A stretch of DNA of 64,000 bases from Microbispora bryophytorum (GTDB taxonomy: Bacteria; Actinomycetota; Actinomycetes; Streptosporangiales; Streptosporangiaceae): NCBI RefSeq assembly GCF_006874465.1, contig NZ_VIRL01000005.1:1-64000 (forward strand), read 5' to 3'. Below are positions 2,582-19,806 of the stretch, piece after piece. Under the pieces are notes generated by a model. It made no database searches. It had not been told where the DNA came from and saw only the letters and a program-made list of their open reading frames with translations. Both the position numbers and the translations under genes were made by a program. Position 1 is the stretch's first letter. Every line of letters begins with the position of its first letter.

Positions 2582-2608
2582 GCCTCTCCGAGAAGGGACC
2601 CCCTCTTC

Positions 2609-4330: not shown

Positions 4331-4333
4331 CCT
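4304..4333 (+). promoter_or_regulatory. sigma70-like promoter of the lacI-type gene
   Basis: A perfect -35 TTGACA (4304-4309), 18-bp spacer and -10 TAGCCT (4328-4333) lie within the last codons of the glycosidase gene. The predicted transcription start (about 4340) falls inside the palindrome at 4338-4351 and about 25 bases before the ATG at 4364. This lets the repressor be made independently of the sugar operon. Confidence 0.6.
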
Positions 4334-4337
4334 GCGG

Positions 4338-4351
4338 TCGAATCGATTCGA
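4338..4351. promoter_or_regulatory. 14-bp palindromic LacI-type operator
   Basis: TCGAATCGATTCGA is a perfect 14-bp palindrome with the central CG expected of LacI-family operators. It sits on the predicted transcription start, so repressor binding there would give autoregulation. A weaker half-related inverted repeat, CATCG-N3-CGATG, covers 4354-4366 and includes the ATG. The main operon promoter is upstream of the window, so a second copy there cannot be checked. Confidence 0.6.
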
Positions 4352-4363
4352 AGCATCGCGTCG

Positions 4364-5392: not shown

Positions 5393-5490
5393 ACGGGTTC
5401 CGCCGATCCGGCCGTTCTCGTGTCGTCTGCCCGAGAGGATAGGTTGGCTCACGATCATCGGGGCGCGAGTGGCCATGGGGAGGTTCGGGA

Positions 5491-7047
5491 GTGGTGCCGT
5501 CCACGCTCGGCGGTCGTTACGAGCTGGAGGAGCTGATCGGCCGGGGCGGGATGGGCGAGGTCTGGCGGGGCCGGGACCTGCGGGCCCACCGCCCCGTGGC
5601 GGTGAAGATCCTCGCGCCGCAGGTCGCCGGGGTCGCCTCGCGGGAGCGCTTCGCCCGTGAGGCCCGCGCCGCCGCCCGCGTGGTGCACCCGAACGTGGTC
5701 ACCGTGCTCGACGTGGGCGAGCAGGACGCGCGGCCCTATCTGGTGATGGAGCTGCTCACCGGCCGCAGCCTGGCCGAGGAGCTGCTCGACCGGGGCCGGT
5801 ACGGCGTGGCGGAGGCGTGCCGTCTCATGAGCCAGGCCGCCGCGGGCCTGGACGCCGCGCACCGCGCCGGGGTCGTGCACCGGGACGTCAAACCCGCCAA
5901 CCTGCACCTCACCGCGAGCGGCGTGCTCAAGGTGGTCGACTTCGGCGTCGCCCAGGTGGCGACCGAGGCGGCGCGGCTCACCATGGTGGGCGCGGTCGTC
6001 GGCACCGCCGCCTACCTGGCTCCGGAGCAGATCGACGGCAGGGGCGGCGGGTCCGCCTGCGATCTGTACGCGCTGGGGTGCGTCTGCTACGAGCTGCTGT
6101 GCGGGCATCCGCCGTTCACCGGGTCGGCCCCGGAGCTGGTCTACCAGCACATCCACCAGGCTCCGGTGCCGCCCAGCCGGCACCGTCCCGACATCCCCGC
6201 CGAGCTGGAGCGCCTCATCATGGCGCTGCTCGCCAAGGACTCCGCCGGCCGGCCCGCCGACGCGGAGGTCGCCCGCCGGATCCTGGCGGCCGTCGCCCTC
6301 GCCCCGGGGAACCCGCCGCGCGAGGCCGGGATGCCGCAGGCGCCGTACGGCGCGCGTGCGGGCGACACGGCGCTGCTGGACGCCACGCTGCTGGACGCCG
6401 CGCTGCTCGACGCCCCGCCGCCCGGCGTCGCGGCCGGTCGTGGGGCGGGGGCGTCGCCCGAGCGGCGCACGCTCATCCGGCTCGGGGCCGCGGTGGCGGG
6501 CCTCGCCGCGGTCACGATCGGGGTGGCGGCGCTGTCCGGCGGCGGCGGGCAGGCGGAATCCGCGGTCGCGGCCCAGTCGCCGGCGGCCGCCGGCGACTCA
6601 CCCACCCCGGAGAGGAAGGGCTCGGCCGCTCCGACGCCCCGGCCGAGCAGGACACCGTCTCTCAGGCCGTCCCCGAAGCCGTCCCCGAAGCCGTCTCCCA
6701 CGCCGTCCGCGCGCCGCGTCTACCGCAGCTACCAGGAGTGGCTGGCCGCCTTCGACCACGCCGTGCAGGAGCAGGAGCGCCGGGGCGGCATCGAGCCGAA
6801 GCTGGCCCGCGACGCCCACGAGGAGATCAGGAGGACGGCCAGGGACATGTCCAGGGACATGCCCAGGGGCCGGGACAGGGGAAGGGGCAGTGGCCGGGGC
6901 GGGGACGGGGGCGACAAGGCCGCGGAGCGCGTCCGCGACCTGCTCGGCAAACTCCAGCAGGCGCACCAGGACGGCCGGCTCGCCGACGGCCCGCTCGTCG
7001 ACTTCCTGAACGCCGCCGGCCTCAGCGCGCGGAGGGGCGGCGACTGA
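5491..7047 (+). CDS. membrane Ser/Thr protein kinase (PknB/Hanks type)
   Basis: Receptor-like kinase of 518 residues. The catalytic domain has the glycine loop GRGGMGEVW (17-25), ATP-binding Lys39 in VAVKIL, the catalytic loop HRDVKPAN (130-137, Asp132), DFG at 150-152 and APE at 177. A linker with three LLDA repeats leads to one membrane helix (about 328-349, IRLGAAVAGLAAVTIGVAAL). The outside part has a Pro/Ser/Lys linker with repeated PSPKPSPKPSP and then a charged helical tail (YQEWLAAFDHAV onward) ending in a basic RGRDRGRGSGRG stretch. No PASTA repeat is present. GTG 5491 is chosen because GGGGAGG lies 7 bases upstream. The 3' end overlaps the convergent Lrp gene by 26 bp. Ligand and substrates unknown. 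Confidence 0.93.
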   Translation: MVPSTLGGRYELEELIGRGGMGEVWRGRDLRAHRPVAVKILAPQVAGVASRERFAREARAAARVVHPNVVTVLDVGEQDARPYLVMELLTGRSLAEELLDRGRYGVAEACRLMSQAAAGLDAAHRAGVVHRDVKPANLHLTASGVLKVVDFGVAQVATEAARLTMVGAVVGTAAYLAPEQIDGRGGGSACDLYALGCVCYELLCGHPPFTGSAPELVYQHIHQAPVPPSRHRPDIPAELERLIMALLAKDSAGRPADAEVARRILAAVALAPGNPPREAGMPQAPYGARAGDTALLDATLLDAALLDAPPPGVAAGRGAGASPERRTLIRLGAAVAGLAAVTIGVAALSGGGGQAESAVAAQSPAAAGDSPTPERKGSAAPTPRPSRTPSLRPSPKPSPKPSPTPSARRVYRSYQEWLAAFDHAVQEQERRGGIEPKLARDAHEEIRRTARDMSRDMPRGRDRGRGSGRGGDGGDKAAERVRDLLGKLQQAHQDGRLADGPLVDFLNAAGLSARRGGD

Positions 7048-7678: not shown

Positions 7679-10600
7679 GTGTCTGCCCCCGCGTCCACGT
7701 CTCCCGTCTCGCTCGACGACAAGTACGCGGCCGAGCACGGCACCGTGCTGATCTCGGGCGTCCAGGCCCTCGTCCGGCTGACCCTGGAGCAGCGCCGCCT
7801 CGACGCCGAGCGCGGCCTGGACACGCGGGTCTTCGTCTCCGGATACCCCGGCTCACCGCTGGGCGGCGTCGACCTGGAGATGGCACGGGCCGCGCGGTTC
7901 CTCACGGAGGCGGGCGTGGTGGCCCGGCCCGGCCTCAACGAGGAGCTCGCGGCCACGGCGGTCGCGGGCACCCAGCTGCTCGCCCAGGTGCCGGGCCGTC
8001 GGCACGAGGGGGTGACCGGGTTCTGGTACGGGAAGAACCCGGGCCTCGACCGGGCCGCCGACGCGATCCGGCACGGCAACCTCGCCGGCACAGCGCCGCT
8101 CGGCGGGGCGGTCGCCTGGATCGGCGACGACCCCGGCAGCAAGTCCTCGACCGTGCCCAGCTCCTGCGAGCCGATGTGCCAGAGCCTGTCGATGCCGCTG
8201 CTCGCCCCCGGCTCCGTGGCGGAGGTCGTCGAGCTCGGGCTGCACGCGGTGGCGCTGTCGCGGGCCACCGGCCTGTGGGCAGGCCTGAAGATCGTCGCCG
8301 ACGTCGCCGACGCCTCCGCCACCGTCGACCTCGGACCGCTGCGCGACGACATCCGGTCGGGCGTCCCGGTGCCGGACCGCGCCGACCGGGGGGCGCCGCC
8401 CACCCTGGTCGGCCCGGCCTCGCTCGAGGCCGAGCACGACATGCTCACCCGCCGGCTCGGCCTGGCCCGCGAGTACGCCCGCGCGCACGGCCTCAACCGG
8501 GTGACCCACGACGCGCCGCGAGCCACGACGGGCGTGCTCGCGTCCGGCACCTCCTACGCCGTGGTCCTGCGCGCCCTCGCCGACCTCGGCCTGGACGAGG
8601 CCGCGATGGACCACCTCGGCCTGCGGCTCATCCGGCTCGCCATGCCGTTCCCGCTCGCGTACGACGACCTCGCCGCCATGACCGCAGGGCTCGACCGGGT
8701 GCTCGTGGTCGAGGACAAGGTGCCGTTCCTGGAGGGGCACCTCAAGCAGGCGCTGTACGACACCGGGCAGCGCCCCGACGTCATCGGCAGGGAACTGCTG
8801 ACGGCGCGCGGCACGGTCGGCGCGCAGGACGTGGCCGGGGCGCTCGCCACCTGTCTCGGCCCGGACCGCCTGCCCCGCCAAGCGGCGATCCTGGCGCCCG
8901 CCCCTGCCCGGCGCCGCGTCATGCTCCCGCTGGTCGCCGCCCGCACGCCGTACTTCTGCTCGGGCTGCCCGCACAACGCCGCGACGCGGGCCTCCAGCGA
9001 CACGCTGGTGGGCGCGGGCATCGGCTGCCACGCCATGATCGCCCTGGACGGGAACGGACGCGGCAGGCAGGTCGGCATGACGCAGATGGGGGGCGAGGGC
9101 GCCCAGTGGTTCGGCCTGGCCCCCTTCACCTCCGACCGCCACTTCACCCAGAACCTCGGCGACGGCACCTTCCACCACTCCGGCTCCCTGGCCGTACGCG
9201 CCGCCGTCGCGGCCGGCGTCTCGATGACGTACAAGCTGCTCTACAACGACGCGGTCGCGATGACCGGCGGGCAGCGCGCGGAGGGCCGCCTCGACGTCCC
9301 GGCGCTGACGCGGTGGCTGGCGGCCGAGGGGGTGCGCCGGGTGGTGGTCACCACGCCGGAGCCGCAGACCTACCGGGGCGTCCGGCTGGCGTCGATCGCG
9401 TCCGTACGGCACCGCGACGACCTCCCGGCCGTGGAGCGGGAGCTCGCCGCGGTCGACGGGGTGACCGTGCTCATCCACGACGACCGCTGCGCGGCCGAGG
9501 AGCGGCGGCTGCGCAAACGCGGGAAACTGCCCACGCCGACGGCCAGGGTCGTGGTCAACGAGCGCGTGTGCGAGGGCTGCGGCGACTGCGGGGACGCCTC
9601 CACCTGCCTGTCCGTGCAGCCGGTGGAGACCGAGTTCGGCCGCAAGACCCGCATCCACCAGGCGTCGTGCAACTCCGACCTGAGCTGCCTCAAGGGCGAC
9701 TGCCCGTCGTTCCTGCTCGTCGAGCCTCGCCCTCGGACCCCGCGTACGGTGCCCGAGCCGCCGGTGGCGCTGACCGAGCCCGTGGCGCGCTTCCCTGAGC
9801 GCGCGGCGCTGCTGCGGATGCCCGGCATCGGCGGCACGGGGGTGGTGACCGTCTCGCAGATCCTGCAGATGGCCGCCCACCTCGACGGCCTGCACGCCGC
9901 CGGGCTCGACCAGACCGGGCTGGCGCAGAAGGGCGGCCCCGTCGTCAGCGACGTGCGGATCTCTCCCCACCCGATCACCGGCTCGGTGCGCGCCGCCCGC
10001 GGCACCGCCGACGTCCTCATCGGCTTCGACGCGCTCGGCGCCGCCGCCGACGACACCCTCGCCGTCGCCTCGCCCGGGCGCACGGTCGCCGTCGTGAACA
10101 CCGCGATCGTGCCGACGGCCGCCATGGTCACCGGCCGCGCCGCGCTCTCCGGGGCCGGGGACGCGATCGCCCGCATCGCCTCGGCCACCGTGCCCGGCAC
10201 GGGCCTCCACCTGGACGCCGGAGCGCTGTCCGAGGCGCTGTTCGGCGATCACATGCCCGCCAACCTCGTGCTCGTCGGCGCGGCCTACCAGCACGGCTGC
10301 ATCCCGATCTCGGCGGACGCGATCGAGCGGGCCATTCGCCTCAACGGTGGTTCCAGCAGTGCGGCCGTGGAGCGGAACCTGGCCGCCTTCCGCTGGGGGC
10401 GGGCCGCCGTGATCGACCGCGAGGCCGTGTTCCGGGCTGCCGTCCCTCCGGAGCCGCCGGTCGTTCCGGTGGACGACGCCGCCCTGCGCGAGGCGGCGGG
10501 AACCGGGGCGATCGAGGAGGCGCTGGCCGTACGCGTCGCCGATCTGACCGGCTACCAGAACGCGGCCTACGCCCGCTCGTACGCCCGGGAGGTGCGCCGG

Positions 10601-11155
10601 GTGGCCGCGCTGGCCGCCGAACGGGCGGGGGAGGAGGCCGGGGCGCGCATCGGGCTCGCCTACGCCCGGGGCCTGCACAGGCTCATGGCGTACAAGGACG
10701 AGTACGAGGTCGCCCGGCTGCACCTCGACCCGGTGGAGCGGGCCCGGCGCGAGCGGGAGTTCGGCCCCGGCGCCGCCGTGTCGGTGCTGCTGCACCCGCC
10801 GCTGCTGCGGGCGATGGGCCTCACGCGCAAGATCAGGCTGCGCCGGTCCGCCGGCGTCGTGTTCCGCGGGCTGCGGGCCGCCCGCGTGCTGCGCGGCACC
10901 GCGTTGGACGTGTTCGGGTACGCCGCCGTCCGCCGGGTGGAGCGTACGCTGGTGGTGGAGTACCGCGAGCTGGTGAGGCGCGCGTTCGACCGGCTCACCC
11001 CGGCGACCGCCGCGGCCGTCGCGGAGATCGCCGCCCTGCCGGACCTGATCCGGGGGTACGAGGACATCAAGCTCGCCCGTGTCGCGGAGTTCCGCGACCG
11101 CGCCGCCGCCCTTCTCGCCGAGCTGAACGCGCCCGTCCTCCAGGAGTCATCGTGA
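7679..11155 (+). CDS. fused indolepyruvate:ferredoxin oxidoreductase family protein
   Basis: Protein of 1158 residues that joins the alpha and beta subunits of a 2-oxoacid:ferredoxin oxidoreductase. Order: an N-terminal pyruvate-ferredoxin-like domain (SGYPGSPLGG near 55); a TPP domain with a CSGCPHN cysteine pair near 425 and GDGTFHHS near 495; a 4Fe-4S cluster segment with C-x2-C-x2-C-x5-C near 631-643 and further cysteines (ASCNSDLSCLKGDCP); the catalytic gamma-like domain GIGGTGVVTVSQ near 715; then a long C-terminal extension. Such enzymes decarboxylate aryl or branched 2-oxoacids to acyl-CoA in the cytosol with ferredoxin as acceptor. GTG 7679 has AGGAGG 8 bases upstream. The stop overlaps the acyl-CoA dehydrogenase start (GTGA), so the product acyl-CoA may pass to that enzyme. 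Confidence 0.93.
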   Translation: MSAPASTSPVSLDDKYAAEHGTVLISGVQALVRLTLEQRRLDAERGLDTRVFVSGYPGSPLGGVDLEMARAARFLTEAGVVARPGLNEELAATAVAGTQLLAQVPGRRHEGVTGFWYGKNPGLDRAADAIRHGNLAGTAPLGGAVAWIGDDPGSKSSTVPSSCEPMCQSLSMPLLAPGSVAEVVELGLHAVALSRATGLWAGLKIVADVADASATVDLGPLRDDIRSGVPVPDRADRGAPPTLVGPASLEAEHDMLTRRLGLAREYARAHGLNRVTHDAPRATTGVLASGTSYAVVLRALADLGLDEAAMDHLGLRLIRLAMPFPLAYDDLAAMTAGLDRVLVVEDKVPFLEGHLKQALYDTGQRPDVIGRELLTARGTVGAQDVAGALATCLGPDRLPRQAAILAPAPARRRVMLPLVAARTPYFCSGCPHNAATRASSDTLVGAGIGCHAMIALDGNGRGRQVGMTQMGGEGAQWFGLAPFTSDRHFTQNLGDGTFHHSGSLAVRAAVAAGVSMTYKLLYNDAVAMTGGQRAEGRLDVPALTRWLAAEGVRRVVVTTPEPQTYRGVRLASIASVRHRDDLPAVERELAAVDGVTVLIHDDRCAAEERRLRKRGKLPTPTARVVVNERVCEGCGDCGDASTCLSVQPVETEFGRKTRIHQASCNSDLSCLKGDCPSFLLVEPRPRTPRTVPEPPVALTEPVARFPERAALLRMPGIGGTGVVTVSQILQMAAHLDGLHAAGLDQTGLAQKGGPVVSDVRISPHPITGSVRAARGTADVLIGFDALGAAADDTLAVASPGRTVAVVNTAIVPTAAMVTGRAALSGAGDAIARIASATVPGTGLHLDAGALSEALFGDHMPANLVLVGAAYQHGCIPISADAIERAIRLNGGSSSAAVERNLAAFRWGRAAVIDREAVFRAAVPPEPPVVPVDDAALREAAGTGAIEEALAVRVADLTGYQNAAYARSYAREVRRVAALAAERAGEEAGARIGLAYARGLHRLMAYKDEYEVARLHLDPVERARREREFGPGAAVSVLLHPPLLRAMGLTRKIRLRRSAGVVFRGLRAARVLRGTALDVFGYAAVRRVERTLVVEYRELVRRAFDRLTPATAAAVAEIAALPDLIRGYEDIKLARVAEFRDRAAALLAELNAPVLQESS

Positions 11156-12291
11156 CCGTCGACCGTCTGCTGCCCGGCCCGGACGCCCGGGACCTCATCG
11201 AGCTGACCCGTGAGATCGCCGACAAGGAACTCGCCCGCCGCGTCGACGAGCACGAGCGCGCGGAGACCTACCCGGAGGGGCTGTTCGCCACGCTCGGGGC
11301 CGCCGGGCTCCTCGGCCTTCCCTACCCGGAGGAGCACGGCGGCGGCGGCCAGCCGTACGAGGTGTATCTCCAGGTGATCGAGGAGCTGGCCGCGCGGTGG
11401 GCCGCCGTCGCGGTCGCGGTCAGCGTGCACACGCTGTCCTGTCTGCCTCTGGCGGTGTACGGCACACCGGAGCAGCGGGAGCGCTGGCTGCAGGACATGC
11501 TCGCCGGGCGGCTGATCGGCGGCTACAGCCTGTCGGAGCCCCAGGCCGGGTCGGACGCCGCGGCTCTGACCTGCAAGGCCGAGAAGACCGAGGGCGGCTA
11601 CCGGATCACCGGCACCAAGGCGTGGATCACCCACGGCGGCCGGGCGGACTTCTACGCGTTGTTCGCCCGCACGGGCTCCGGCTCGCACGGCATCTCCTGC
11701 TTCCTCGCGCCCGGCGCCGCCGAGGGCCTGACCTTCGGCCGCCCCGAGGAGAAGATGGGCCTGCACGCCGTCCCCACCACGACCGCCCACTGGGACGGCG
11801 TGCTGATCGACGCCGACCGCCGCATCGGTGAGGAGGGCCAGGGCCTGTCCATCGCCTTCGGCGCACTCGACTCCGGCAGGCTGGGCATCGCCGCCTGCGC
11901 CGTCGGCCTCGCCCAGGCCGCGCTCGACGAGGCCGTCGCGTACGCCAAGGAGCGCGAGGCGTTCGGCAAGAAGATCATCGACCACGAGGGGCTCGGCTTC
12001 CTGCTCGCCGACATGGCCGCCGGGGTGGACTGCGCCCGGGCGACGTACATCGACGCGGCCCGCCGCCGCGACGCCGGCCTGCCGTACAGCAGGCAGGCCA
12101 GCGTCGCCAAGCTCGTCGCGACCGACACCGCGATGCGGGTCACCACCGACGCGGTCCAGGTCCTCGGCGGCTACGGCTACACGCGCGAGTTCCGCGTCGA
12201 GCGCTACATGCGCGAGGCCAAGATCATGCAGATCTTCGAGGGCACCAACCAGATCCAGCGCCTGGTCATCAGCCGCCACCTCGCCAAGTAG
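11152..12291 (+). CDS. acyl-CoA dehydrogenase
   Basis: FAD-dependent dehydrogenase of 379 residues, full family length. It has the substrate/FAD signature YSLSEPQAGSDAAAL, the ITGTKAWITHGG segment, FGKKIIDHEGLGFLLADMA, the QVLGGYGYTREFRVERYMREAK signature and, near the end, the catalytic-base motif with Glu363 in IFEGTNQIQR. It is translationally coupled to the oxidoreductase by a 4-bp overlap and probably oxidises the short acyl-CoA that enzyme makes. Its last 72 bases recur at 17147-17218 in a diverged copy, which makes this 3' end a likely attachment site of the neighbouring island. Confidence 0.95.
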   Translation: MTVDRLLPGPDARDLIELTREIADKELARRVDEHERAETYPEGLFATLGAAGLLGLPYPEEHGGGGQPYEVYLQVIEELAARWAAVAVAVSVHTLSCLPLAVYGTPEQRERWLQDMLAGRLIGGYSLSEPQAGSDAAALTCKAEKTEGGYRITGTKAWITHGGRADFYALFARTGSGSHGISCFLAPGAAEGLTFGRPEEKMGLHAVPTTTAHWDGVLIDADRRIGEEGQGLSIAFGALDSGRLGIAACAVGLAQAALDEAVAYAKEREAFGKKIIDHEGLGFLLADMAAGVDCARATYIDAARRRDAGLPYSRQASVAKLVATDTAMRVTTDAVQVLGGYGYTREFRVERYMREAKIMQIFEGTNQIQRLVISRHLAK

Positions 12292-12332
12292 CCTCTGACA
12301 GGCGAAAACCCCGCTTCCCCTGCTGGGTGGCG
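12220..12332 (+). repeat. direct repeat copy A: acyl-CoA dehydrogenase 3' end plus terminator
   Basis: The last 24 codons of the dehydrogenase (12220-12291) and about 40 bases beyond match 17147-17260. In the coding part 65 of 72 bases agree; six of the seven differences are synonymous and the seventh swaps Lys for Arg. That pattern means both copies evolved as coding sequence, as when an integrating element carries a gene 3' end from an earlier host. See copy B. Confidence 0.8.
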
Positions 12333-12337
12333 GGGTT
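12307..12337 (+). terminator. terminator after acyl-CoA dehydrogenase
   Basis: Perfect 8-bp stem AACCCCGC (12307-12314) / GCGGGGTT (12330-12337), 15 bases after the stop codon. Only a short T run follows. Confidence 0.65.
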
Positions 12338-12898
12338 CGTCGTGTGTGGGAGTAGTTCCAATTGATCCTTGTTCCGTCCCTGTTCCGTAAGAGACCTCGC
12401 GTGGACGGAACAGGCGGTCGTCAATCGCCTTGCGGGCACGGCCGTGGGAGCCGAGCATTGTGGAAGCGGACGGTGAACCCACAGAGTTGCTGACCGCGCT
12501 GCGGTCTTCGGCCAGTTGCGGCCAACGACGACCACGCACTGACCGCCAGGGCAACCTCGTGTTGACGCGTTCTGCGCATTTGATCGGAAACTCGATATGC
12601 GTGTTTCCTGCATCCAATTCATTTCGGAAGCGGAAGGTCAGGCTACCGCGGGGCTTCTGTTCTTCGGGCCTGACGGGCCCCGCGGTACGGGCCCCCTTGC
12701 CACCGGATGAGCGGGCTGGGCACTTGCGGTGGTGGTGCTGTACAGGAGAGAAGCACAGCAACGGGACCGCACTGTGGCTCACTCTGACATCCTCCAGCAC
12801 ATGTCCAAGCAGGGCCGAAGCCTCTCCAAGTCGTGCTCGGCTCCCGTTCGCAAGCAGACGCTCAAGACGACAACGGTTCCGTCGGCAGTTCGAGATCG
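12338..12898. other. gene-poor start of the mobile island
   Basis: I see no convincing gene here. It contains GTTCCGTCCCTGTTCCGT (12371-12388), nearly identical to 17025-17042 at the other end of the island. It also holds a perfect 9-bp inverted repeat CTGTTCCGT/ACGGAACAG (12380-12413) and a strong hairpin with a perfect 11-bp stem TACCGCGGGGC/GCCCCGCGGTA (12644-12687). Composition is less G/C-rich than the flanks. Confidence 0.5.
12644..12687. terminator. 11-bp-stem hairpin
   Basis: TACCGCGGGGC (12644-12654) pairs perfectly with GCCCCGCGGTA (12677-12687) across a 22-base loop. No T-tract follows. It could end transcripts coming from the membrane-protein gene on the minus strand, or be a DNA structure tied to the element. 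Confidence 0.4.
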
Positions 12899-13378
12899 CT
12901 ACACGCGGAGCTGCTGGATATCAATTGCCGCTGCCTGAGCAAAGTCGAGAAGGGCTCGGCGGGCCTTCCGGCCTCGCTCAGCACGATCTTGTTCATCTGT
13001 AGCGTCGTGGATTTCCTCGGCCAGCCTCAATGCCAACGACGCCAAGCTATCGAGTTTCTGGTTCGTTGTGACCAGTCGCAGCCTGAAGAGCGCGGCCGTC
13101 GCGTTGGCGCGCTGGCGATAGGACTCATCGCGTGCGGTAGCGTACGCAGGGCTCTGGGAGTCTTCCTGCTCCCTGTGCCATCGGTCGTTCTGGCTCTTCC
13201 GGAAGTCCGTAAGTGCGCCGGCGAAGGTGCTGTACGCCGCCAGACGTTCTTGCCACAGTCGTTCTTCCCGCGCTGACTGGCGCGCCTGCTTGGCAGTCCG
13301 TATCTGGAAAACATATGTGGCGGTGGCTCCCAACAGTGTTCCCAAGATTGCTACGAGGCTCGTCACCACGCTCTCCAT
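12899..13378 (-). CDS. small membrane-anchored coiled-coil protein (KilB-like)
   Basis: Protein of 159 residues. One N-terminal membrane helix (about 3-24, VVTSLVAILGTLLGATATYV) is followed by a charged, Arg/Glu/Ala-rich helical region with strong coiled-coil character (ERLWQERLAAYSTFAGALTDFRKSQNDR). This layout resembles small proteins annotated as KilB in actinomycete integrative elements, where spread or kil functions are proposed; I give this link low weight. It lies inside the island, so transfer or maintenance is a reasonable guess. The start is the ATG at 13378. Confidence 0.6.
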   Translation of the reverse strand: MESVVTSLVAILGTLLGATATYVFQIRTAKQARQSAREERLWQERLAAYSTFAGALTDFRKSQNDRWHREQEDSQSPAYATARDESYRQRANATAALFRLRLVTTNQKLDSLASLALRLAEEIHDATDEQDRAERGRKARRALLDFAQAAAIDIQQLRV

Positions 13379-13740
13379 GTGACCAGTGGATCACGCGCGC
13401 GTGCCGCCGTCATGTGTTCAGCGTTCCGGTTCTGCCTCCACATCTCGTGATCTTGCTAACGCAGTCGCTAACAACCACCTTGGACTGTCCTCGACGACTG
13501 TGGGCCTCTCCTTCGCCCGATTACGTCATAAGGCAGGACCTTTGACTGTTCGTGTACGGATGTGGACGCGGTCGAACTGGCTACAGATCTGAGGGCGGCA
13601 CGGTGGCTGAGGCCGTGACGACCGCGGACTTCGGTGCCCGTTGTACGGGCTGGGGCGATCACCGGCAAGGCCCTCCTCCGTCGGGCCTTGCCACCGGGTG
13701 ACCATGGCTGAGGCGACAGCAGTGCCTGCAGCAACGTCTC
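13379..13740. other. non-coding part of the island
   Basis: No credible gene. Contains a strong hairpin at 13664-13692 (10-bp perfect stem GGCAAGGCCC/GGGCCTTGCC). Bases 13706-13740 (GACAGCAGTG, CAGCAACGTC) are related to 16493-16520 and lead into a tRNA-Phe-like fragment. Confidence 0.5.
13664..13692. terminator. 10-bp-stem hairpin
   Basis: GGCAAGGCCC (13664-13673) pairs perfectly with GGGCCTTGCC (13683-13692), loop 9 bases, no T-tract. Confidence 0.45.
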
Positions 13741-13812
13741 CGTCAGCCGAGCAGGGTGACTGCTCCGCCTGAAAGCGGAAGGTCGGCAGTTCGACCCTGC
13801 CCCTGACCACCA
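13741..13812 (+). pseudogene. tRNA-Phe 3' fragment (attachment-site scar)
   Basis: The 3' half of a tRNA-Phe is recognisable. The anticodon stem TCCGC/GCGGA (13764-13768, 13775-13779) has a 6-base CTGAAA loop, one A short of the normal CTGAAAA with anticodon GAA. A perfect T-arm follows, GGCAG-TTCGACC-CTGCC (13785-13801), then a 7-base acceptor strand CCTGACC, A73 and encoded CCA (13810-13812). The matching 5' acceptor strand (GGTCAGG) and a proper D-arm are absent, so it cannot be a functional tRNA. This is what remains when an element integrates in a tRNA gene and carries or displaces its 3' end. A terminator follows. Confidence 0.75.
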
Positions 13813-13826
13813 CCCTTGAACAGCCC

Positions 13827-13861
13827 AAACGCCCCAAGCGATCACGCTCCGGGGCGTTTTT
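13827..13861 (+). terminator. terminator behind the tRNA-Phe fragment
   Basis: Stem AAACGCCCC (13827-13835) / GGGGCGTTT (13851-13859) with an inner AGCG/CGCT pair, followed by a T run to 13861: a textbook intrinsic terminator, probably inherited with the tRNA. Confidence 0.75.
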
Positions 13862-14028
13862 GATCTCCAGTGACACCAACGCTGACAGCAACGACCAGAG
13901 CGATGCGGCTCGCAGGATGAGTTGGGTCGGTGGCGCCTCTCCGCAAGTACGGCCGGCATGGGCGTTGGGTGCCCTCGTGTTCAGAAGTCGACTCCCCACA
14001 ATCGTGATGTCCCCGTATTGAATACGTG

Positions 14029-14058
14029 TTGCAGTGGCGTGGATACCATCCGTAAACT
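14029..14058 (+). promoter_or_regulatory. candidate promoter of the OLD nuclease gene
   Basis: TTGCAG (14029-14034), 18-bp spacer, TAAACT (14053-14058). The region is much more AT-rich than the genome average. The predicted transcript start near 14065 leaves a leader of about 45 bases to the ATG at 14112. Confidence 0.45.
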
Positions 14059-14111
14059 TAGCCATCCTTCAATAGATGGCTCTCAAGGACAGGTATCGGT
14101 GGCATAAGACC

Positions 14112-15863
14112 ATGATTAAGGACATGCGCCTGCGTAACTTCAAAGCCTTCGAGAAGTTCGCCATGAATTTCCAAGATACCTCCTTCCTCGTGGGTCCAAA
14201 CAGCGCAGGGAAGAGTACCGTTCTCACTGCACTCCGTCTGGCGGAAGCGTGCCTGCGACTGGCACGTAGAACTCGTCCATCGCTTGCATGCCAACATCGC
14301 GACGTGTGGGTTCAGGCGCACCCAACGCCTATTAGGGAGTTCGAGGCGTTGAACGAAAGCATCCGCTTCGACTTCCGGAATGAAGAGACGAGCCTGGAGC
14401 TCACCTGGCGCTCGGGATATAAATTGCGTGCGGTGTGGCTTCCTGATTCTGGCGATGAGGAAAGATCTGAGCCGTTTTTCTACCTGCTCGATAAGGATGG
14501 CCGGGTACCGCGAACGCCGAAGGAAGTAAGGGAAGGATACCCAACAGTCGGTATCAATCCTACGCTATCTCCTCTGGAGCATGAGGAACAGATCTTGAGT
14601 GACGACTACGTTCGCAAAAACTTTGCGACGAGGCTGAGTAGTCGCCACTTTAGGAACAATCTCCGGATGCTCGTAGGCGACGGCGAGTGGGAGGGATTTC
14701 TAGACTTTGCCAACCCCTGGCTGGGCGGGATCAAGCTGTCGAAGCCGCTAAGTCGATACGGCGCCGATGGGGAATCCAGCATTGATGTTTTCTACACGGA
14801 GCCAGGAAGTCGCGTAGAGAAAGAACTCGTATGGGCCGGGGACGGGGTGCAAATCTGGCTCCAACTCCTTATGCACCTCTATCGAGCGCAGAGCCTTCCG
14901 ACGCTCGTTCTAGACGAGCCGGAGGTATTCCTACACGCGGACCTGCAACGTCGACTGGTGCGCCTGCTCGACTCGTTGCGCGCACAAGTGGTGCTGGCGA
15001 CGCACTCCAGCGAGGTGCTGGCGGAAGCGCCTCGGGATGCGATCGTGTGGGTCGACAAAACTCGTTCAAGAGCCATCCGTTCACCCAAAGATGAATCCAT
15101 GGCAGGATTGGATGCTGCACTGGGAAGTGCCTTTAATCTTGGTTTGGCGCGCGCTCTCCGAGCGCGGGGCGTTCTCTTCATCGAAGGTAAAGATCAAAAA
15201 ATTCTCAAACTTCTGGGCAGGCAGCTCGGGCTAGAACGAATCATTCAGGAGACCGCGCTTGCTGTAGTACCCATCAATGGTTATTCGAACTGGAACCATG
15301 TAGAGCCGTTCAAGTGGTTCGCTGATCAATTCCTGCAAAACGCTGTGCGCTCAATGATCCTTCTTGACAGAGACTACAGGACAGATCGGCAGGTCGCCGC
15401 TGTCGAGGGGAAGCTGAAAGACGCGGGATTTCAGGCTCACGTCTGGAACAGGAAAGAGCTTGAGAGCTACCTGTTGCTGCCCACTGTCATATCGCGCCTT
15501 AGCAAGTGTCCGACGGAAACAGTCTCGACTGAGCTTGATCGGATAGTGGCAGGCATGGAGGATCCCATCTTTTCTCGTTTTTTCGCGGAGGTCCAGAACG
15601 AGAAGAGGTACAATCCTCGCGAGACGGTTGCCCTCCATAGAGAAGCGCAGCAGGAATTCCGGGCTAAGTGGGGAAGTCTCGATTTTCGGTATTCAAACTG
15701 CCCGCCTAAAGATGTCCTCGCCGAGATGAATCGATTTCTCCAAGGAGTGGGATTCAAAGCGGTTTCATTTGAGGGAATCGCAAAGAATGTCAAGGTCGAG
15801 GAGGTGCCTGAAGAAATGGTCCAGGTCCTGATGGAGATCAATGCGCTACCTGACTCAAAGTAG
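14112..15863 (+). CDS. OLD-family ATP-dependent nuclease (AAA ATPase + TOPRIM)
   Basis: Protein of 583 residues counted from ATG 14112; an in-frame ATG at 14076 would add 12. Relatives start MIxxxRLxNFKxF, as here with MIKDMRLRNFKAF. Domain 1 is an SMC/Rad50-like ATPase: Walker A GPNSAGKST (28-36), Walker B with Asp268-Glu269 in LVLDEPEVFLH, switch His298 in ATHSSEVL. Domain 2 is a TOPRIM nuclease: Glu358-x2-Asp361 in FIEGKDQKIL and the Asp419-x-Asp421 pair in ILLDRDYR, then LESYLLLP. All key residues are present, so the enzyme looks intact. OLD proteins act in phage defence (P2 Old, GajA of Gabija). No UvrD-like partner is adjacent, so this is a stand-alone (class 1-like) form. Codon use is far more A/T-rich than neighbours, pointing to recent transfer. 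Confidence 0.88.
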   Translation: MIKDMRLRNFKAFEKFAMNFQDTSFLVGPNSAGKSTVLTALRLAEACLRLARRTRPSLACQHRDVWVQAHPTPIREFEALNESIRFDFRNEETSLELTWRSGYKLRAVWLPDSGDEERSEPFFYLLDKDGRVPRTPKEVREGYPTVGINPTLSPLEHEEQILSDDYVRKNFATRLSSRHFRNNLRMLVGDGEWEGFLDFANPWLGGIKLSKPLSRYGADGESSIDVFYTEPGSRVEKELVWAGDGVQIWLQLLMHLYRAQSLPTLVLDEPEVFLHADLQRRLVRLLDSLRAQVVLATHSSEVLAEAPRDAIVWVDKTRSRAIRSPKDESMAGLDAALGSAFNLGLARALRARGVLFIEGKDQKILKLLGRQLGLERIIQETALAVVPINGYSNWNHVEPFKWFADQFLQNAVRSMILLDRDYRTDRQVAAVEGKLKDAGFQAHVWNRKELESYLLLPTVISRLSKCPTETVSTELDRIVAGMEDPIFSRFFAEVQNEKRYNPRETVALHREAQQEFRAKWGSLDFRYSNCPPKDVLAEMNRFLQGVGFKAVSFEGIAKNVKVEEVPEEMVQVLMEINALPDSK

Positions 15864-15897
15864 ATAGGCGGCCCGCCACTGGTCGCCTATCTACTTT
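15857..15897. terminator. bidirectional terminator between OLD gene and integrase remnant
   Basis: Perfect 14-bp stem AAAGTAGATAGGCG (15857-15870) / CGCCTATCTACTTT (15884-15897) with a 13-base loop. It includes the OLD stop codon and, because the arms end in A and T runs, works in both directions. Confidence 0.75.
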
Positions 15898-15898
15898 C

Positions 15899-16160
15899 CT
15901 ACTCCAACGTCTGGCTCAGTTTCTTCAAGGCATGGCGTTTGTCATCGAGGGAGGCGTGGGCGTAGATGGTCATCGTGACCTCGATGTCGCTGTGGCCGAC
16001 GATGTCGCGGACGACCTGGGGCGGGACGCTGAGGTTGAGCAGGAGCGTCACGCAAGTGTGGCGGAGGTCGTGAAAGCGCATGTCGCCGAGCCCGACCGCC
16101 TTGCGGATGGCTCCCCAGCTACGTCAGAGGTTGTCCGGCTCCATGGGCGTCCCACAGGGC
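15899..16160 (-). pseudogene. tyrosine integrase, C-terminal remnant with in-frame stop
   Basis: The C-terminal catalytic part of a phage-type tyrosine recombinase: HDLRHTCVTLLL (catalytic His and Arg), DIVGHSDIEVTMTIYAH (second His and nucleophile Tyr), ending KKLSQTLE. Upstream in the same frame GTPMEPDNL is followed by a TGA and then RSWGAIRKAVGLGDM, so a single stop interrupts what relatives read as DNLxRSW. Everything before about 16160 is lost, where a HAD fragment on the other strand begins. The gene cannot make an active recombinase. Confidence 0.8.
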
Positions 16161-16161
16161 G

Positions 16162-16494
16162 GACAACCAGCTCGGGAAAATTCAGCAGACCGGGTTGGCC
16201 GAGGCCGTGGACGCCTACGCACTGTCGGGCGTTGAAGGCATCCGTAAGCCCGACGTTGCATTGTTTGAGATCGCGGCCAAGCGTTGCGGCGTGACTCTCG
16301 CCGAGGGCGGATGGATGATCGGTGATAACCTCACCGCCGATATAGTCGGCGGGGGTGCTGCGGGTTTCCGAACGACCTAGATCGATCGAGGCACCTGGCC
16401 CGACGCCAACCACCAGGCCGACCATGTGGTCACGGATGTACTCGAAGCTATTGAGATCTTGCTGGCATGCAGCGAGGGCGGCGGCGCGCGATGA
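16162..16494 (+). pseudogene. HAD-family hydrolase remnant
   Basis: Reads DNQLGKIQQTGLAEAVDAYAL, then GVEGIRKPDVALFEIAAKRCG and GWMIGDNLTADIVGGG, the C-terminal two thirds of a HAD phosphatase with motif III Lys (RKPD) and motif IV (GDN). The N-terminal nucleophile motif and a start codon are missing. A TAG at 16378-16380 stands where relatives have a Trp, after which the frame continues as IDRGTWPDANHQADHVV to a TGA at 16492. It abuts the integrase remnant at about 16160, marking a deletion or recombination joint. Confidence 0.75.
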
Positions 16495-16620
16495 CAGCAG
16501 TGGTGACAGCAACGTCGGCCAACAGAGGCATCCGGCGGCAGCCATCCACCACCCTCTGACCACAGTCTCCGGGACCCGGGCAGGGCGATTGTTCCGCCTG
16601 AAAAGCGGACGGTCGTGCTG
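16489..16620 (+). repeat. second tRNA-Phe-like scar
   Basis: Contains the complete tRNA-Phe anticodon arm TCCGC-CTGAAAA-GCGGA (16593-16609, anticodon GAA) preceded by CAGGGCGATTG, parallel to CAGGGTGACTG of the first scar (13752 onward). Upstream, GACAGCAGTG and CAGCAACGTC also match the first scar, with about 60 extra bases between. No T-arm or acceptor survives. The pair of scars bounds the segment with the OLD nuclease and broken integrase. Confidence 0.6.
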
Positions 16621-16632
16621 TCGCGTAGCAGG

Positions 16633-17007
16633 CTATCTCCGCATGGAAGGGACGTCGTAGGCAGGCGGCTGGCTGTTCATCAGCTCGGTCAGGGTCTTAT
16701 CTGTGAGGGCAAGCTCGAAGGCGTTGCCTGCTTGCTGCGGATCCCAGCCGTGCCCGAGCGCCGTGCGTATGACCGCCGTCACAAGCGCTGGCCGTATTGC
16801 CATCGTCCGTTCTCCCAACCATGCGTCCGGCCGTGAGCAGGGAAGCGACACCAAAAGGACACGACTCGACGCGTCGGCAAGTTCCACCGCGAAGGTCATC
16901 GGCCCCCAGCTGTTCCCCTGGCAATACGTGGGCTTACGGCGGACGCGCCAGCGGAATACGCTGTCATTGACGGTGATGAGCCGCGAACCCTGCTTCGGGA
17001 TCGCCAT
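16633..17007 (-). CDS. conserved small hypothetical protein
   Basis: Protein of 124 residues starting MAIPKQGSRLITVND, with a basic RWRVRRKPTY stretch and GPMTFAVELAD, and no signal or membrane helix. I recognise the style of a small cytosolic protein common in actinomycetes but know no function. AGGAGG 7 bases before the ATG at 17007 decides the start. It is the last gene before the island's right repeat, with the GTTCCGTCACTGTTCCGT repeat (17025-17042) just upstream, possibly in its promoter. It may be cargo of the island or part of the former locus. Confidence 0.75.
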   Translation of the reverse strand: MAIPKQGSRLITVNDSVFRWRVRRKPTYCQGNSWGPMTFAVELADASSRVLLVSLPCSRPDAWLGERTMAIRPALVTAVIRTALGHGWDPQQAGNAFELALTDKTLTELMNSQPPAYDVPSMRR

Positions 17008-17146
17008 TGGCAACCTCCTGCCCTGTTCCGTCACTGTTCCGTGGGATGGCCGAGAACAGCGAGAAACGATGAGAGCCAGCCGTAACGGTAACCCCTGGTC
17101 ACGCTTCTGATCGACGGATTTTCGCAAGTGGACACGGAGGGGATCG

Positions 17147-17260
17147 AAGATCATGCAAATCTTCGAAGGCACCAACCAGATCCAGCGCCTCGTAATCAGC
17201 CGTCACCTGGCCAGGTAGCCCTTACATGCGAAGACCCCGATTTCCTGTGCTGGGAGGCGG
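17147..17260 (+). repeat. direct repeat copy B: displaced acyl-CoA dehydrogenase 3' end
   Basis: Encodes KIMQIFEGTNQIQRLVISRH and then LAR-stop, the C-terminus of an acyl-CoA dehydrogenase, with no gene body in front. The match to 12220-12332 continues about 40 bases past the stop into the terminator region. It is the displaced end expected at the far side of an element integrated in the 3' end of the dehydrogenase gene, about 4.9 kb away. Confidence 0.8.
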
Positions 17261-17350
17261 CCCGCCGCGTCATCGCCGGCTCGGCCTGGTCGCTGATCTG
17301 CAGATCGGCGGCCACCTGCTGCGCGGTCCGGCCGGCCCGCCCACCAGCTC

Positions 17351-17384
17351 CGGCCCCGTCCTCTTCCGGAGGCGGGGCCGTTTG
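17351..17384. terminator. terminator downstream of the lipoprotein gene
   Basis: CGGCCCCG (17351-17358) pairs with CGGGGCCG (17373-17380); inner CCTC/GAGG pairs extend the stem, and TTT follows on the plus strand. It lies between the right repeat and the convergent lipoprotein gene. Confidence 0.65.
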
Positions 17385-17397
17385 GCGCGTTTCGGAT

Positions 17398-17853
17398 CTA
17401 TTCGACGATCTCGTTGAGCGCGTCCTCGTACGCCTTGGCATCGGAGGGGGCCATGTCCTTGTCCACGCGCACCACGACGTTCCCCTTCACATATGTGTAC
17501 TCAGCCAGCATCGGAGTCTTCCCGAGCGCCTGTATGTACTCGGCGCGGGCCTCGGCGCCGTCGGCGTCCTCGAACACCTCGACACTGCCCGCCTTATCGA
17601 CATTGACCCTGCTATCGGTGAACTCGGCCTTGCTGAGGTAGCCGTTGGGGCGGCCAAGCAGCTTGTTCGGGTCAGTGTTCTCGTCGTAGACGGTGCCGAG
17701 CTTGGCGGGCACTCCGTTGGTGCCGAGGGCGCCGATGATGGCAGTGGCGTCCTTGTTCGTCGTGGCCCCGCCGCAGGCGGTGAGGAGGCCGACCAGTGCG
17801 AGCGCGGCGGCGGCGCGAGGGTGTCGTCGTAATTGGATCATGAGGTCATGCAT
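17398..17853 (-). CDS. putative secreted lipoprotein
   Basis: Protein of 151 residues with a basic N-terminus, a hydrophobic core (AAAALALVGL) and a lipobox LTAC ending at Cys27, so it should be lipid-anchored outside the membrane. The mature part contains YDENTDPNKLLGRPNGYLSKAEF and a single compact domain with alternating charged residues. I recognise no family. An in-frame ATG four codons later is an alternative start. It is the first chromosomal gene right of the island. Confidence 0.8.
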   Translation of the reverse strand: MHDLMIQLRRHPRAAAALALVGLLTACGGATTNKDATAIIGALGTNGVPAKLGTVYDENTDPNKLLGRPNGYLSKAEFTDSRVNVDKAGSVEVFEDADGAEARAEYIQALGKTPMLAEYTYVKGNVVVRVDKDMAPSDAKAYEDALNEIVE

Positions 17854-18067
17854 ACATTCTGGATCGATCCAGGCGTGGCAGTGTTGATGTGATTGAGATC
17901 GGATGCTCTGTAGGCCGAACGGACGGTGGGTGGCCTCGGTGTGGAGGGTGGCGAGACGCCGCGGACCCCGCCGGGCCGAGAGGTTCGCTTCCGTTCACGA
18001 CATCGAGCCGGAGTGCGGGAAGCCGCGCACCCCGATCGGTGTTCTCATCGGGCAGACCATACTGTTG

Positions 18068-18083
18068 AGCGGTTATATCCGCT
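18068..18083. promoter_or_regulatory. inverted repeat before the FMN reductase gene
   Basis: AGCGG-TTATAT-CCGCT, a perfect 5-bp-arm inverted repeat whose AT-rich centre contains a -10-like TATATC (18075-18080). A regulator bound here would block the promoter. No regulator gene is adjacent. Confidence 0.45.
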
Positions 18084-18105
18084 TATGAGTGTTTTGGGGG
18101 AGATT

Positions 18106-18681
18106 GTGGCGAAGCCTGTTCTGCAGATCGTCATCGCCAGCACGCGTCCCGGGCGGGTCGGGCTGCCGGTCGCGGAGTGGTTCTATGAGCGCGCGGCCGC
18201 CCAGGACCTCTTCGAGGTCGAGCTTGTCGACCTGGCGGAGGTGAACCTGCCGTTCATGAACGAGCCCAACCACCCCCGCCTCCGGCAGTACGTCCACCAG
18301 CACACCAAGGAGTGGAGCGCGACCATCGAGCGCGGCGACGCGTTCGTGTTCGTCACGCCGGAGTACAACTACGGCTTCAACGCCGTCCTGAAGAACGCCC
18401 TCGACTACCTGCACCACGAGTGGCACTACAAGCCGGCCGGGTTCGTCAGCTACGGCGGCGTATCCGCGGGCACGCGGGCCGTGCAGATGCTCAAGCAGGT
18501 CGTCACCACGCTGAAGATGGTGCCGCTGTTCGAGGCGGTCTCGATCCCCTTCGTCGCCCAGCTCCTCGACGAGGAGGGCCGCCTCCAGCCCAATGAGGTC
18601 ATGAACTCGGCGGCGGACGCGATGGTGGCCGAACTGGCCCGGCTCGCCCCCGCGCTGCGGCACCTGCGTCCCGCCGGCTGA
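18106..18681 (+). CDS. NADPH-dependent FMN reductase family protein
   Basis: Flavodoxin-like reductase of 191 residues. FMN-phosphate loop near the N-terminus (VIASTRPGRVGLPVAEWF), central FVTPEYNYGFNAVLKNALDYL and the SYGGVSAGTRAV loop, all diagnostic of the NADPH:FMN/azoreductase family. GTG 18106 has GGGGGAG just upstream and gives the usual N-terminus VAKPVLQIV; ATG 18085 would add seven residues but lacks a ribosome site. It is cytosolic and reduces FMN, quinones or azo compounds. A similar but distinct paralogue lies at 42535. Confidence 0.9.
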   Translation: MAKPVLQIVIASTRPGRVGLPVAEWFYERAAAQDLFEVELVDLAEVNLPFMNEPNHPRLRQYVHQHTKEWSATIERGDAFVFVTPEYNYGFNAVLKNALDYLHHEWHYKPAGFVSYGGVSAGTRAVQMLKQVVTTLKMVPLFEAVSIPFVAQLLDEEGRLQPNEVMNSAADAMVAELARLAPALRHLRPAG

Positions 18682-19175
18682 TCACGCAGGGGGCAGCACG
18701 CCGGTCTCCGGGTCCCGCTCCGTGAGGCAGTAGACCCCGCCGGCCGGGTCACGCATGACGATCCAGTGCCGCCCCCGCGTCACGCACACCGCGCCGTGCC
18801 GTTCGTGCAGCGCGCGAACGGCATCGGGGTCGGCGCAGGCCAGGTCGACATGGGCCGACCGGCCGGGGCCCTCGCCGAGCCGCTGCAGGAGGATCCGCAC
18901 CGGCGTCCCCGGCGTCGTCAGCGCCGTGAACTCGGGCAACGGTCCCCGGCGCGGGGACCACCCGGTCAGCGCCGCCCAGAACGCCTCCTCCTCCTCGTAC
19001 GCGTCGGGCGCGATGTCGAGGCTGACCTGGTCGAGGCGGGTGGCGGCGAACACCGGCGGGAGCCGGGCCGTCCCCGGCGGGAGGACAGGCGCGTGCCGGT
19101 GACGGCGGTCCAGAACGCCGCGGCCGCCTCGAACCGCTCGCGCGGCCGGTCCACGAAGGCGAGCACCCGCCGCAC
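18682..19175 (-). pseudogene. two-domain VOC (glyoxalase-like) protein, apparently frameshifted
   Basis: A GTG at 19175, 4 bases after the HAD stop, opens a frame reading AFVDRPRERFEAAAAFWTAV and TGTRLSSRRG, the start of a two-domain VOC protein. Around 19090 the homology leaves this frame and resumes in another with VFAATRLDQVSLDIAPD, a second FWAALTGWSPRRG, and HWIVMRDPAGGVYCLTERD up to the stop at 18682. The second domain alone would be 123 residues if started at 19053. Either a frameshift with a short deletion or a sequencing error separates the halves. VOC proteins bind metals and act on small electrophiles or bind antibiotics. Confidence 0.65.
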
Positions 19176-19179
19176 CGTC

Positions 19180-19806
19180 TCAGCACGCCTCCTCGAACAG
19201 CGCCAGCAGCGCCGTCTCCAGGTCCGCGGGGGTGCGGTAGACGACCCCGGTCATGCCGAGCACCCTCGCCGCGTCGACGTTCTCGGCCCGGTCGTCGATG
19301 AACAGGCACCGCTCCGGCGGCGCGCCCGCGTGCTCGGCGGCGATCTCGAAGATCCGTGGGTCGGGCTTGGCCACCCCCACGTCGTAACTGCTCACGACGT
19401 GGTCGAAGGCGTCGTGCAACTCCAGCTCGTGCAGGTGGGCGGCCAGTTCCGAGGTGGCGTTGCTGACGAGCACGACGGGGACGCGGGCGCGCGCCCGCGT
19501 GAGCAGCGCGAGCACCTCCTCGTCCGCCCAGGTGCGGGCGGCCAGCCAGTCGGCGGTCAGCGCGCTCGCCCGCGCGGCCGAGCCCACCAGCCCGGCGAGG
19601 ACGGGAACGGCCGAGGCCAGCCACTCCTCACGGGTCACCAGCCCGGTCAGGGCCGGGACCACAAGCGCCGACTCGCCGGTCACCCGTGCCACGGTCCCCG
19701 GTTCCACGCCGTACGCCCGCTCGATCTCCGCCTGCTGCTCAAGATCCTGAAATTTCAGGACGCCGTCGAAGTCGCACAGCACCGCGTCGAATGCTCTGGC
19801 CGCCAT
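19180..19806 (-). CDS. HAD-superfamily hydrolase
   Basis: Phosphatase-type HAD protein of 208 residues. Motif I DFDGVL (Asp12 nucleophile, Asp14 acid), motif II VSNAT, motif III Lys in VAKPDPRIF and motif IV FIDDRAEN are all present, with a helical cap between motifs I and II. It probably dephosphorylates a small cytosolic metabolite; substrate unknown. The VOC gene follows after 4 bases, suggesting co-transcription. It is unrelated in detail to the HAD remnant in the island. Confidence 0.92.
   Translation of the reverse strand: MAARAFDAVLCDFDGVLKFQDLEQQAEIERAYGVEPGTVARVTGESALVVPALTGLVTREEWLASAVPVLAGLVGSAARASALTADWLAARTWADEEVLALLTRARARVPVVLVSNATSELAAHLHELELHDAFDHVVSSYDVGVAKPDPRIFEIAAEHAGAPPERCLFIDDRAENVDAARVLGMTGVVYRTPADLETALLALFEEAC

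Follow-up and report, generated by a model that had tools for sequence, protein, structure and literature searches.

A probable decayed integrative and conjugative element at the 3' end of an acyl-CoA dehydrogenase gene in Microbispora

The 64,000-nucleotide stretch of Microbispora DNA analysed here (G000:C93:1-64000, hereafter the window) carries an island at the 3' end of an acyl-CoA dehydrogenase (ACD) gene, and this island is very probably the decayed descendant of an actinomycete integrative and conjugative element (AICE), with a tyrosine integrase specific for ACD 3' ends. An earlier note on this DNA had proposed an element that inserts at the gene's 3' end and brings a replacement end with it; this proposal is supported by the anatomy of the attachment (att) sites, the spacing of their arms, what is left of the cognate integrase, unoccupied sites in relatives and many other cases in which the integrase is intact. 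Related elements appear to insert repeatedly at ACD ends in soil actinomycetes. We use acd1, acd2 and acd3 as our own labels for ACD paralogs, and L and G numbers for fetched loci and genomes.

The end of acd1, the target gene in the window, recurs downstream as a direct repeat. Over its coding part (24 codons including the stop, 12220-12291 against 17147-17218), 65 of 72 bases are identical, and six of the seven differences are silent third-position changes, the remaining one replacing Lys by Arg. The 74-nt repeat is the longest among the direct repeat families listed for the region 10500-19500; including the terminator past the stop, it spans 114 nt at 86% and reaches 17260. The downstream copy (copy B, the gene-side one being copy A) lacks a gene body, because its reading frame meets a stop 13 codons upstream. 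Thus the note's central observation, a dehydrogenase end copied downstream without its gene, is confirmed, and so is its remark that the enclosed DNA is less GC-rich (59.4% at 12300-17140 against 71.3% for the window).

We take both copies to be attachment sites of a single family of tyrosine integrases, and similar pairs exist elsewhere. A distal end copy is paired with a gene-side site in 13 fetched islands (the window, L021, L022, L023, L024, L040, L086, L097, L148, L158, L159, L161 and the G098 element, L145/L146, which spans ~20 kb), and such copies occur at acd1, acd2 and acd3. In these 13 gene/copy pairs the left edge of the shared block is sharp: mean identity per ten bases is 0.20-0.31 between -60 and -21, 0.44 at -20..-11 and 0.88 at -10..-1, rises to 0.95-0.98 in the block's first 30 bases and fades beyond the stop and terminator. 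By eye, an upstream stretch resembling TGATCGA...TTTTCGC, which is non-ACD DNA, is common to the copies of G098, L024, L040, L086 and the window. The sites are accompanied by a tandem arm repeat, TGTTCCGT-N3-TGTTCCGT, typically located ~140-142 bp right of the gene-side core and ~132-133 bp left of the distal core, and both arms are found in nine of the 13 two-copy islands (the window, L021, L022, L023, L024, L086, L148, L159 and G098). With at most one mismatch, the pattern has two matches in the window and none in 100 shuffles. Across 15 Microbispora genomes its exact form occurs 15 times, always beside an ACD end (one of them degraded), and the reversed-pattern control never does, making the arm repeat a simple signature of ACD ends. 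Twelve of 22 scanned ACD loci have an arm within 600 bp of the core. Two end copies are armed on both sides (L025 in G004:C1, at ~8792, minus strand; L097, at ~3790, minus strand), as expected of attP or of the junction between tandem elements.

The integrase itself has left a trace. The window's match to the acd1-site integrase of L087, from Nonomuraea maritima, covers the last 33 residues of that protein, in frame, and nothing else of that integrase was found; the complete integrase of the L023 element, from M. catharanthi CR1-09 (419 aa, PF00589 and PF14659), matches 12390-12467 on the minus strand with 81% identity over residues 387-412 (E 8.3e-5). The ending of the relic, RPREVSYGTGTEQ, is close to those of the acd1-site integrases of L087 and L109, and its position corresponds to that of the integrase gene's 3' end in intact elements. 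The earlier note had seen an integrase remnant in the island. Remnants do exist, two of them, but the PF00589 fragment at 15899-16087 comes from a different integrase, the cognate one being at 12369-12467. The note had also suggested looking for integrases next to ACD ends: of the 25 integrase relatives in the named genomes scanned, 22 are convergent with an ACD 3' end and lie 24-1726 bp from it. Genera with relatives include Microbispora, Nonomuraea, Sphaerisporangium, Microtetraspora, Acrocarpospora and Kribbella.

Comparison of the acd1 locus in 12 genomes of the genus reveals the empty site that the earlier note had anticipated. In seven of them (L042, L043, L045, L046, L047, L049, L050) a gene for an NADPH-FMN reductase lies ~90-300 bp past the ACD stop; the same gene starts at 18091 in the window, 5.8 kb from acd1. 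The gap between ACD stop and reductase is ~1.0 to 3.7 kb in the other five (L041, L044, L048, L051, L052). A decayed ACD end before the reductase is clear in L044 (51 nt, 86%) and L052 (70 nt, 77%), and weaker in L051, where it is visible in translation only; in L048, no trace of an ACD end copy was seen between acd1 and the reductase. Native flank resumes at ~18009 in the window, so the insert measures ~5.7 kb. The note had ended the island at 17260: copy B does end there, but foreign DNA continues to ~18008.

The intact relatives tell us what kind of element this may have been. Their integrase, RepSA and FtsK-like Tra match the AICE module set as laid out in passages of the survey of Ghinet et al. 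(2011, PMC3218068). RepSA (PF20199) is encoded in L085 (8.2e-167) and L087 (3.9e-167), and L087 also has an FtsK/SpoIIIE-type Tra (PF01580, 3.1e-23) and a DUF2637 gene, so that both the Rep and the Tra expected of an AICE are present in relatives. The integrase gene next to the att site is intact in relatives and a 33-residue relic in the window, and a flanking direct repeat and empty attB sites in relatives, two further hallmarks of AICEs, were found. Judged by their predicted genes, the intact relatives fit the gene-content definition of AICEs. The usual tRNA target is missing: a search of the window with ARAGORN brings up no tRNA gene, the target being the ACD gene. Collections of plasmids and phages (94 and 1029 records) contain only integrases below 60% identity, the best reaching 37% among the matches listed, and thus neither an excised copy nor a phage source was found.

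To explain these results we propose that the circular element would carry an attP site made of a left arm ~132 bp from the core, an ACD-end block, a right arm at ~142 bp and the integrase gene, the 3' end of which would reach into the right arm. The block would copy the last ~22-24 ACD codons, from ATC-(ATG/ACC)-CAG-ATC through the stop and terminator, and recombine with the chromosomal ACD end. The gene would thereby receive the element's end, so that the enzyme stays whole, while its old end would be pushed to the far side of the island. We envision that the integrase binds the arm repeats, that the strands are exchanged close to the block's sharp left boundary, and that the element could once excise and move by Tra-driven conjugation. 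Later, a tRNA-Phe-type relic, an insertion sequence (IS) and other DNA would have built up in the copy seen in the window, and all but a small part of the integrase would have been lost.

Several observations weigh against this reading. L087's Tra, RepSA and DUF2637 protein have no match below E 0.8 in the window insert (12292-18008), none below E 1.7 for Tra. Three of the 25 relatives of the integrase lack a neighbouring ACD end: downstream of L090 lies other DNA, L102 is a short relic with an IS next to it, and L103, from another phylum, is 24% identical. The arms are not universal either, one being missing from four of the 13 two-copy islands (gene side in L040 and L097, distal side in L158 and L161) and none lying near the third copy of L023, while ten of the 22 scanned ACD loci have neither an arm nor a second copy. 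At acd3 the gene-side spacing varies (104, 108, 108 and 161 in four loci, L110 and L155 being the same place). L041, the acd1 locus of G007, has a right arm and no second copy in the fetched stretch. Finally, copy B lies inside the insert, and 788 bp of non-native DNA separate it from the native flank; the reading therefore has to invoke a second element, since lost, or a rearrangement. Copy B, which the note saw as a displaced end, is thus an attachment-site copy but not simply the old host end set against native DNA.

The last point invites another arrangement, in which copy B would be the junction of two tandem elements, the island at 12292-17146 and a second one from 17221 to ~18008 that has lost its distal end. 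We regard this as a serious contender that falls somewhat short of an even chance. It would account for the element-type terminator and the 788 bp of foreign DNA between copy B and the native flank, and tandem arrangements have parallels in a three-end array in G007 (L023) and in the copies armed on both sides in G004 (L025) and L097. However, no right arm follows copy B and no third end copy was detected, and the IS relic at 17286-17333 offers an alternative source for the extra DNA.

Other explanations fare much worse. With numerous ACD paralogs in these genomes and a repeat made of coding sequence, copy B could be imagined as all that remains of a duplicated ACD gene after a deletion. We find this hardly credible, as homology begins sharply at the same codon in the 13 gene/copy pairs, at three ACD genes, similar non-ACD DNA lies left of the edge in several pairs, and the arm repeats keep near-fixed distances. 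Synteny, moreover, shows no second full gene there in the fetched relatives: the earlier note had named a complete second dehydrogenase at 17147 as the finding that would speak against it, and no such acd1-like gene lies between acd1 and the reductase in the 12 loci (E 1e-6). It is also very improbable that the integrase remnant at 15899-16087 made the island. It is the sole island integrase fragment recognised by a Pfam scan of six window ORFs (open reading frames) and shows remote similarity to the integrase of L087 (33% over 52 residues), but ACD-site integrases adjoin the ACD end, which is where the 85%-identical relic sits (12369-12467), and the fragment is bracketed by tRNA-Phe pieces at 13764 and 16565. 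A decayed ACD-site element remains by far the most probable source of the island, the features of which are listed in the table.

Table. Features of the ACD-site island and its borders in the window.
Feature	Coordinates	Strand	Evidence
acd1, acyl-CoA dehydrogenase, insertion target	11152..12291	+	Frame complete after insertion; Pfam Acyl-CoA_dh N/M/C domains; best solved relative 3nf4
Copy A, putative gene-side attachment site: last 24 codons, stop, terminator-like hairpin	12220..12350	+	Repeat with 17147-17260; sharp left edge in 13 pairs
C-terminus relic of cognate ACD-site tyrosine integrase, convergent with ACD gene, overlapping arm	12369..12467	-	85% to L087 integrase residues 387-419, E 1.3e-12
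Gene-side arm tandem repeat TGTTCCGTCCCTGTTCCGT	12370..12388	+	~141 bp right of core; pattern scans
tRNA-Phe 3' end and downstream DNA, from a different, probably nested element	13764..13870	+	Up to 97% in relatives; ARAGORN tRNA-Phe(gaa) at L137 match
Cargo AAA ATPase, OLD/GajA-like, possible defence gene	14076..15863	+	AAA_21 2.9e-26; PADLOC AriA 3e-25, Old 8e-18, GajA 8e-18
C-terminal remnant of another tyrosine integrase, probably of nested tRNA-type element	15899..16087	-	PF00589 2.4e-11; 33% over 52 residues to L087, E 2.7e-4
Second, diverged tRNA-Phe-like fragment	16565..16615	+	82% to 13736-13785
Element-borne ORF by distal site, also in other ACD-site elements	16633..17007	-	70% over 44 aa beside L024 distal copy; similar translation in L169 (by eye)
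Distal arm tandem repeat TGTTCCGTCACTGTTCCGT	17024..17042	+	~132 bp left of core; pattern scans
Copy B, putative distal attachment site: ACD end without gene body, shortened terminator	17147..17260	+	Repeat with copy A
Short IS-transposase relic	17286..17333	-	45/48 bases match IS-like gene in L102, opposite strand
Lipoprotein-like ORF inside insert	17398..17853	-	No match in 12 orthologous loci or L024
Native post-ACD flank, leading into NADPH-FMN reductase at 18091	18009..18090	+	77-82% match to DNA ~12-21 bp past acd1 stop in L049, L050

Within the island, the tRNA-Phe pieces at 13764 and 16565 bracket both the 15899 integrase relic and the AAA ATPase, the frame of which is open in otherwise decayed surroundings. 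Most likely, a tRNA-Phe-type element, or part of one, came to lie within the ACD-site island. In one relative, seven tRNA-Phe 3'-end-like fragments lie within 20 kb (G005:C22:14861-33456), likely a tandem array of tRNA-Phe elements. The lipoprotein-like ORF near the distal border is found in two of 15 genus genomes including the window's own, the other genome having it elsewhere (G003:C12). At L041, positions 1423-2997 hold a right arm, an element-type terminator and one gene, presumably transporter-like, with no distal copy before the reductase; this is possibly a partly deleted element.

As RNA, 12278-12350 was considered as a member of the Rfam family RF02996 int-alpA (31.2 bits, gathering threshold 35.8). 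The match does not recur in seven other site-bearing loci (E up to 0.5) and is thus taken as a chance similarity of the terminator-like hairpin. That a sub-threshold match should cover the ACD stop and terminator nevertheless raises the question of whether this RNA family might include att-site terminators.

Three ACD paralogs are used by these elements: acd1 (ending ...IFEGTNQIQRLVISRHLAK), acd2 (...IYEGTNQIQRMVMARQLLK) and acd3 (...IFEGTSEIQRL...). The window genome has two of them occupied, acd1 in the window and acd2 in L021. This second ACD-site island (G000:C71:280500-290500, 1968-6960) holds the relic of an integrase together with a cargo ORF of 947 aa; a similar 975-aa ORF in L023 encodes a GH2-family glycosidase that carries ricin-type lectin repeats. 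When 50 integrases are placed in a tree, those using acd1 fall on one side of a branch with support 100/99, and the starred branches force at least three changes of the acd3 label and at least four of the acd2 label. Because of these forced changes, the target of the integrase appears, with good support, to have changed among ACD paralogs. ACD users do not stand out as strictly one clade on this tree: L121, L122 and L132, with other or unseen neighbours, stand among them at weak forks, and L090 falls inside a starred group.

How far does this specialisation extend? The boundary between ACD users and other integrases, drawn from the fetched loci, lies between two identity classes of a tblastn search with an ACD-site query. 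At 52% identity or more, the target is an ACD gene except in L090 and L102, whereas at 24-47% none of 26 loci has an ACD end within 1.5 kb, L121 and L131 being at contig ends that hide their neighbours. Five loci (L055, L086, L099, L100, L104) fell outside the window/ORF rule of that scan; their ACD ends lie 24-1726 bp away in the scan of relatives (L055 is the same place as L022, with a gap of 1312). A class-wide search (394 genomes, E <=1e-90) yielded seven new loci, none beside an ACD gene within 1.5 kb. Many of the distant integrases converge on other protein genes. Pfam assigns six C-terminal pieces to glutamine synthetase (L127, L141), histidine phosphatase (L142), inositol monophosphatase (L144), the EPSP-synthase family (L138) and GNAT (L132); from their C-termini, we take further neighbours to be Smr-like (L125), rhamnogalacturonan-lyase-like (L068) and glutamine-synthetase-like (L124, L128, L129). 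Seven of 12 such loci (L124, L127, L129, L130, L132, L141, L142) have a second copy of the target end and another shared stretch ~120-150 bp to its left, a spacing that resembles that between arm and core at ACD sites. The best copies are 92 nt at 98.9% (L141) and 87 nt at 94% (L129), those of L124 (E 0.006) and L132 (E 1e-4) being short and weaker; no acceptable second end copy was found in L068, L125, L128, L138 or L144, of which only 6.6 kb (L125) and 8.7 kb (L138) were searched. Since end copy and shared stretch go together in seven of the 12 loci, a similar att architecture appears to serve several protein-gene ends.

Taken further, these data lead us to favour, by a small margin over doubt, the view that there is an undescribed superfamily of AICE-type integrases specialised on the 3' ends of conserved genes for metabolic enzymes. 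One group would have switched ACD paralogs at least three times (from the tree), reading the near-invariant DNA of the EGTNQIQR motif, which, by analogy with MCAD, contains the catalytic glutamate; sister groups would act likewise at glutamine synthetase and histidine-phosphatase (phosphoglycerate-mutase-like) genes. If this is true, the tail of the gene is swapped for another host's at each integration, and the elements are thus carriers of enzyme 3' ends between hosts, every insertion supplying a functional metabolic enzyme with other C-terminal codons. Conservation is the usual explanation for the preference of integrases for tRNA genes. An integrase group that would exploit the conserved coding end of an enzyme family, and move among its paralogs, makes the evolution of target choice directly testable. 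The ~419-residue integrases, with a mapped att block and natural attB sites in several actinomycete genera, may also provide tools for chromosomal insertion, for example in Microbispora and Nonomuraea.

Islands that use the ends of protein genes and restore the gene are known, with e14 and phage 21 in icd and SXT in prfC. There too, a replacement end of the gene travels on attP, but the gene families differ; in the present case, related integrases use three paralogs of a single enzyme family. Like the ACD-site elements, AICEs such as pSAM2, SLP1 and pSLS integrate at gene 3' ends with restoration and form tandem arrays, as described in passages of PMC3218068. That survey, in the passages concerned, places the great majority of tyrosine-type AICEs at the 3' ends of tRNA genes, the pSLS subfamily excepted, in keeping with the earlier note's statement that tRNA genes are the commoner targets. 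The targets here are the 3' ends of ACD protein genes, and the present family might coincide with the pSLS subfamily. The word "dehydrogenase" is absent from the survey's main text, and in the open-licence PMC literature, among the matches listed, we recognised no ACD 3'-end element, which agrees with the note's unfamiliarity with such a target. The same literature yielded one published integration in an ACD gene, that of the M. abscessus prophage prophiT49-3 at attB-21 in the FadE gene MAB_1851 (portions of PMC9934374). According to those portions, this prophage differs in using a serine integrase and in inserting at about position 280 of 1140 bp, not at the 3' end; the gene is thought to be inactivated and there is no repair. 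In helper-embedded satellites, as described in part of PMC10111431, one integrase clade repeatedly targets protein genes; their targets are prophage late genes, unlike the host metabolic genes used here.

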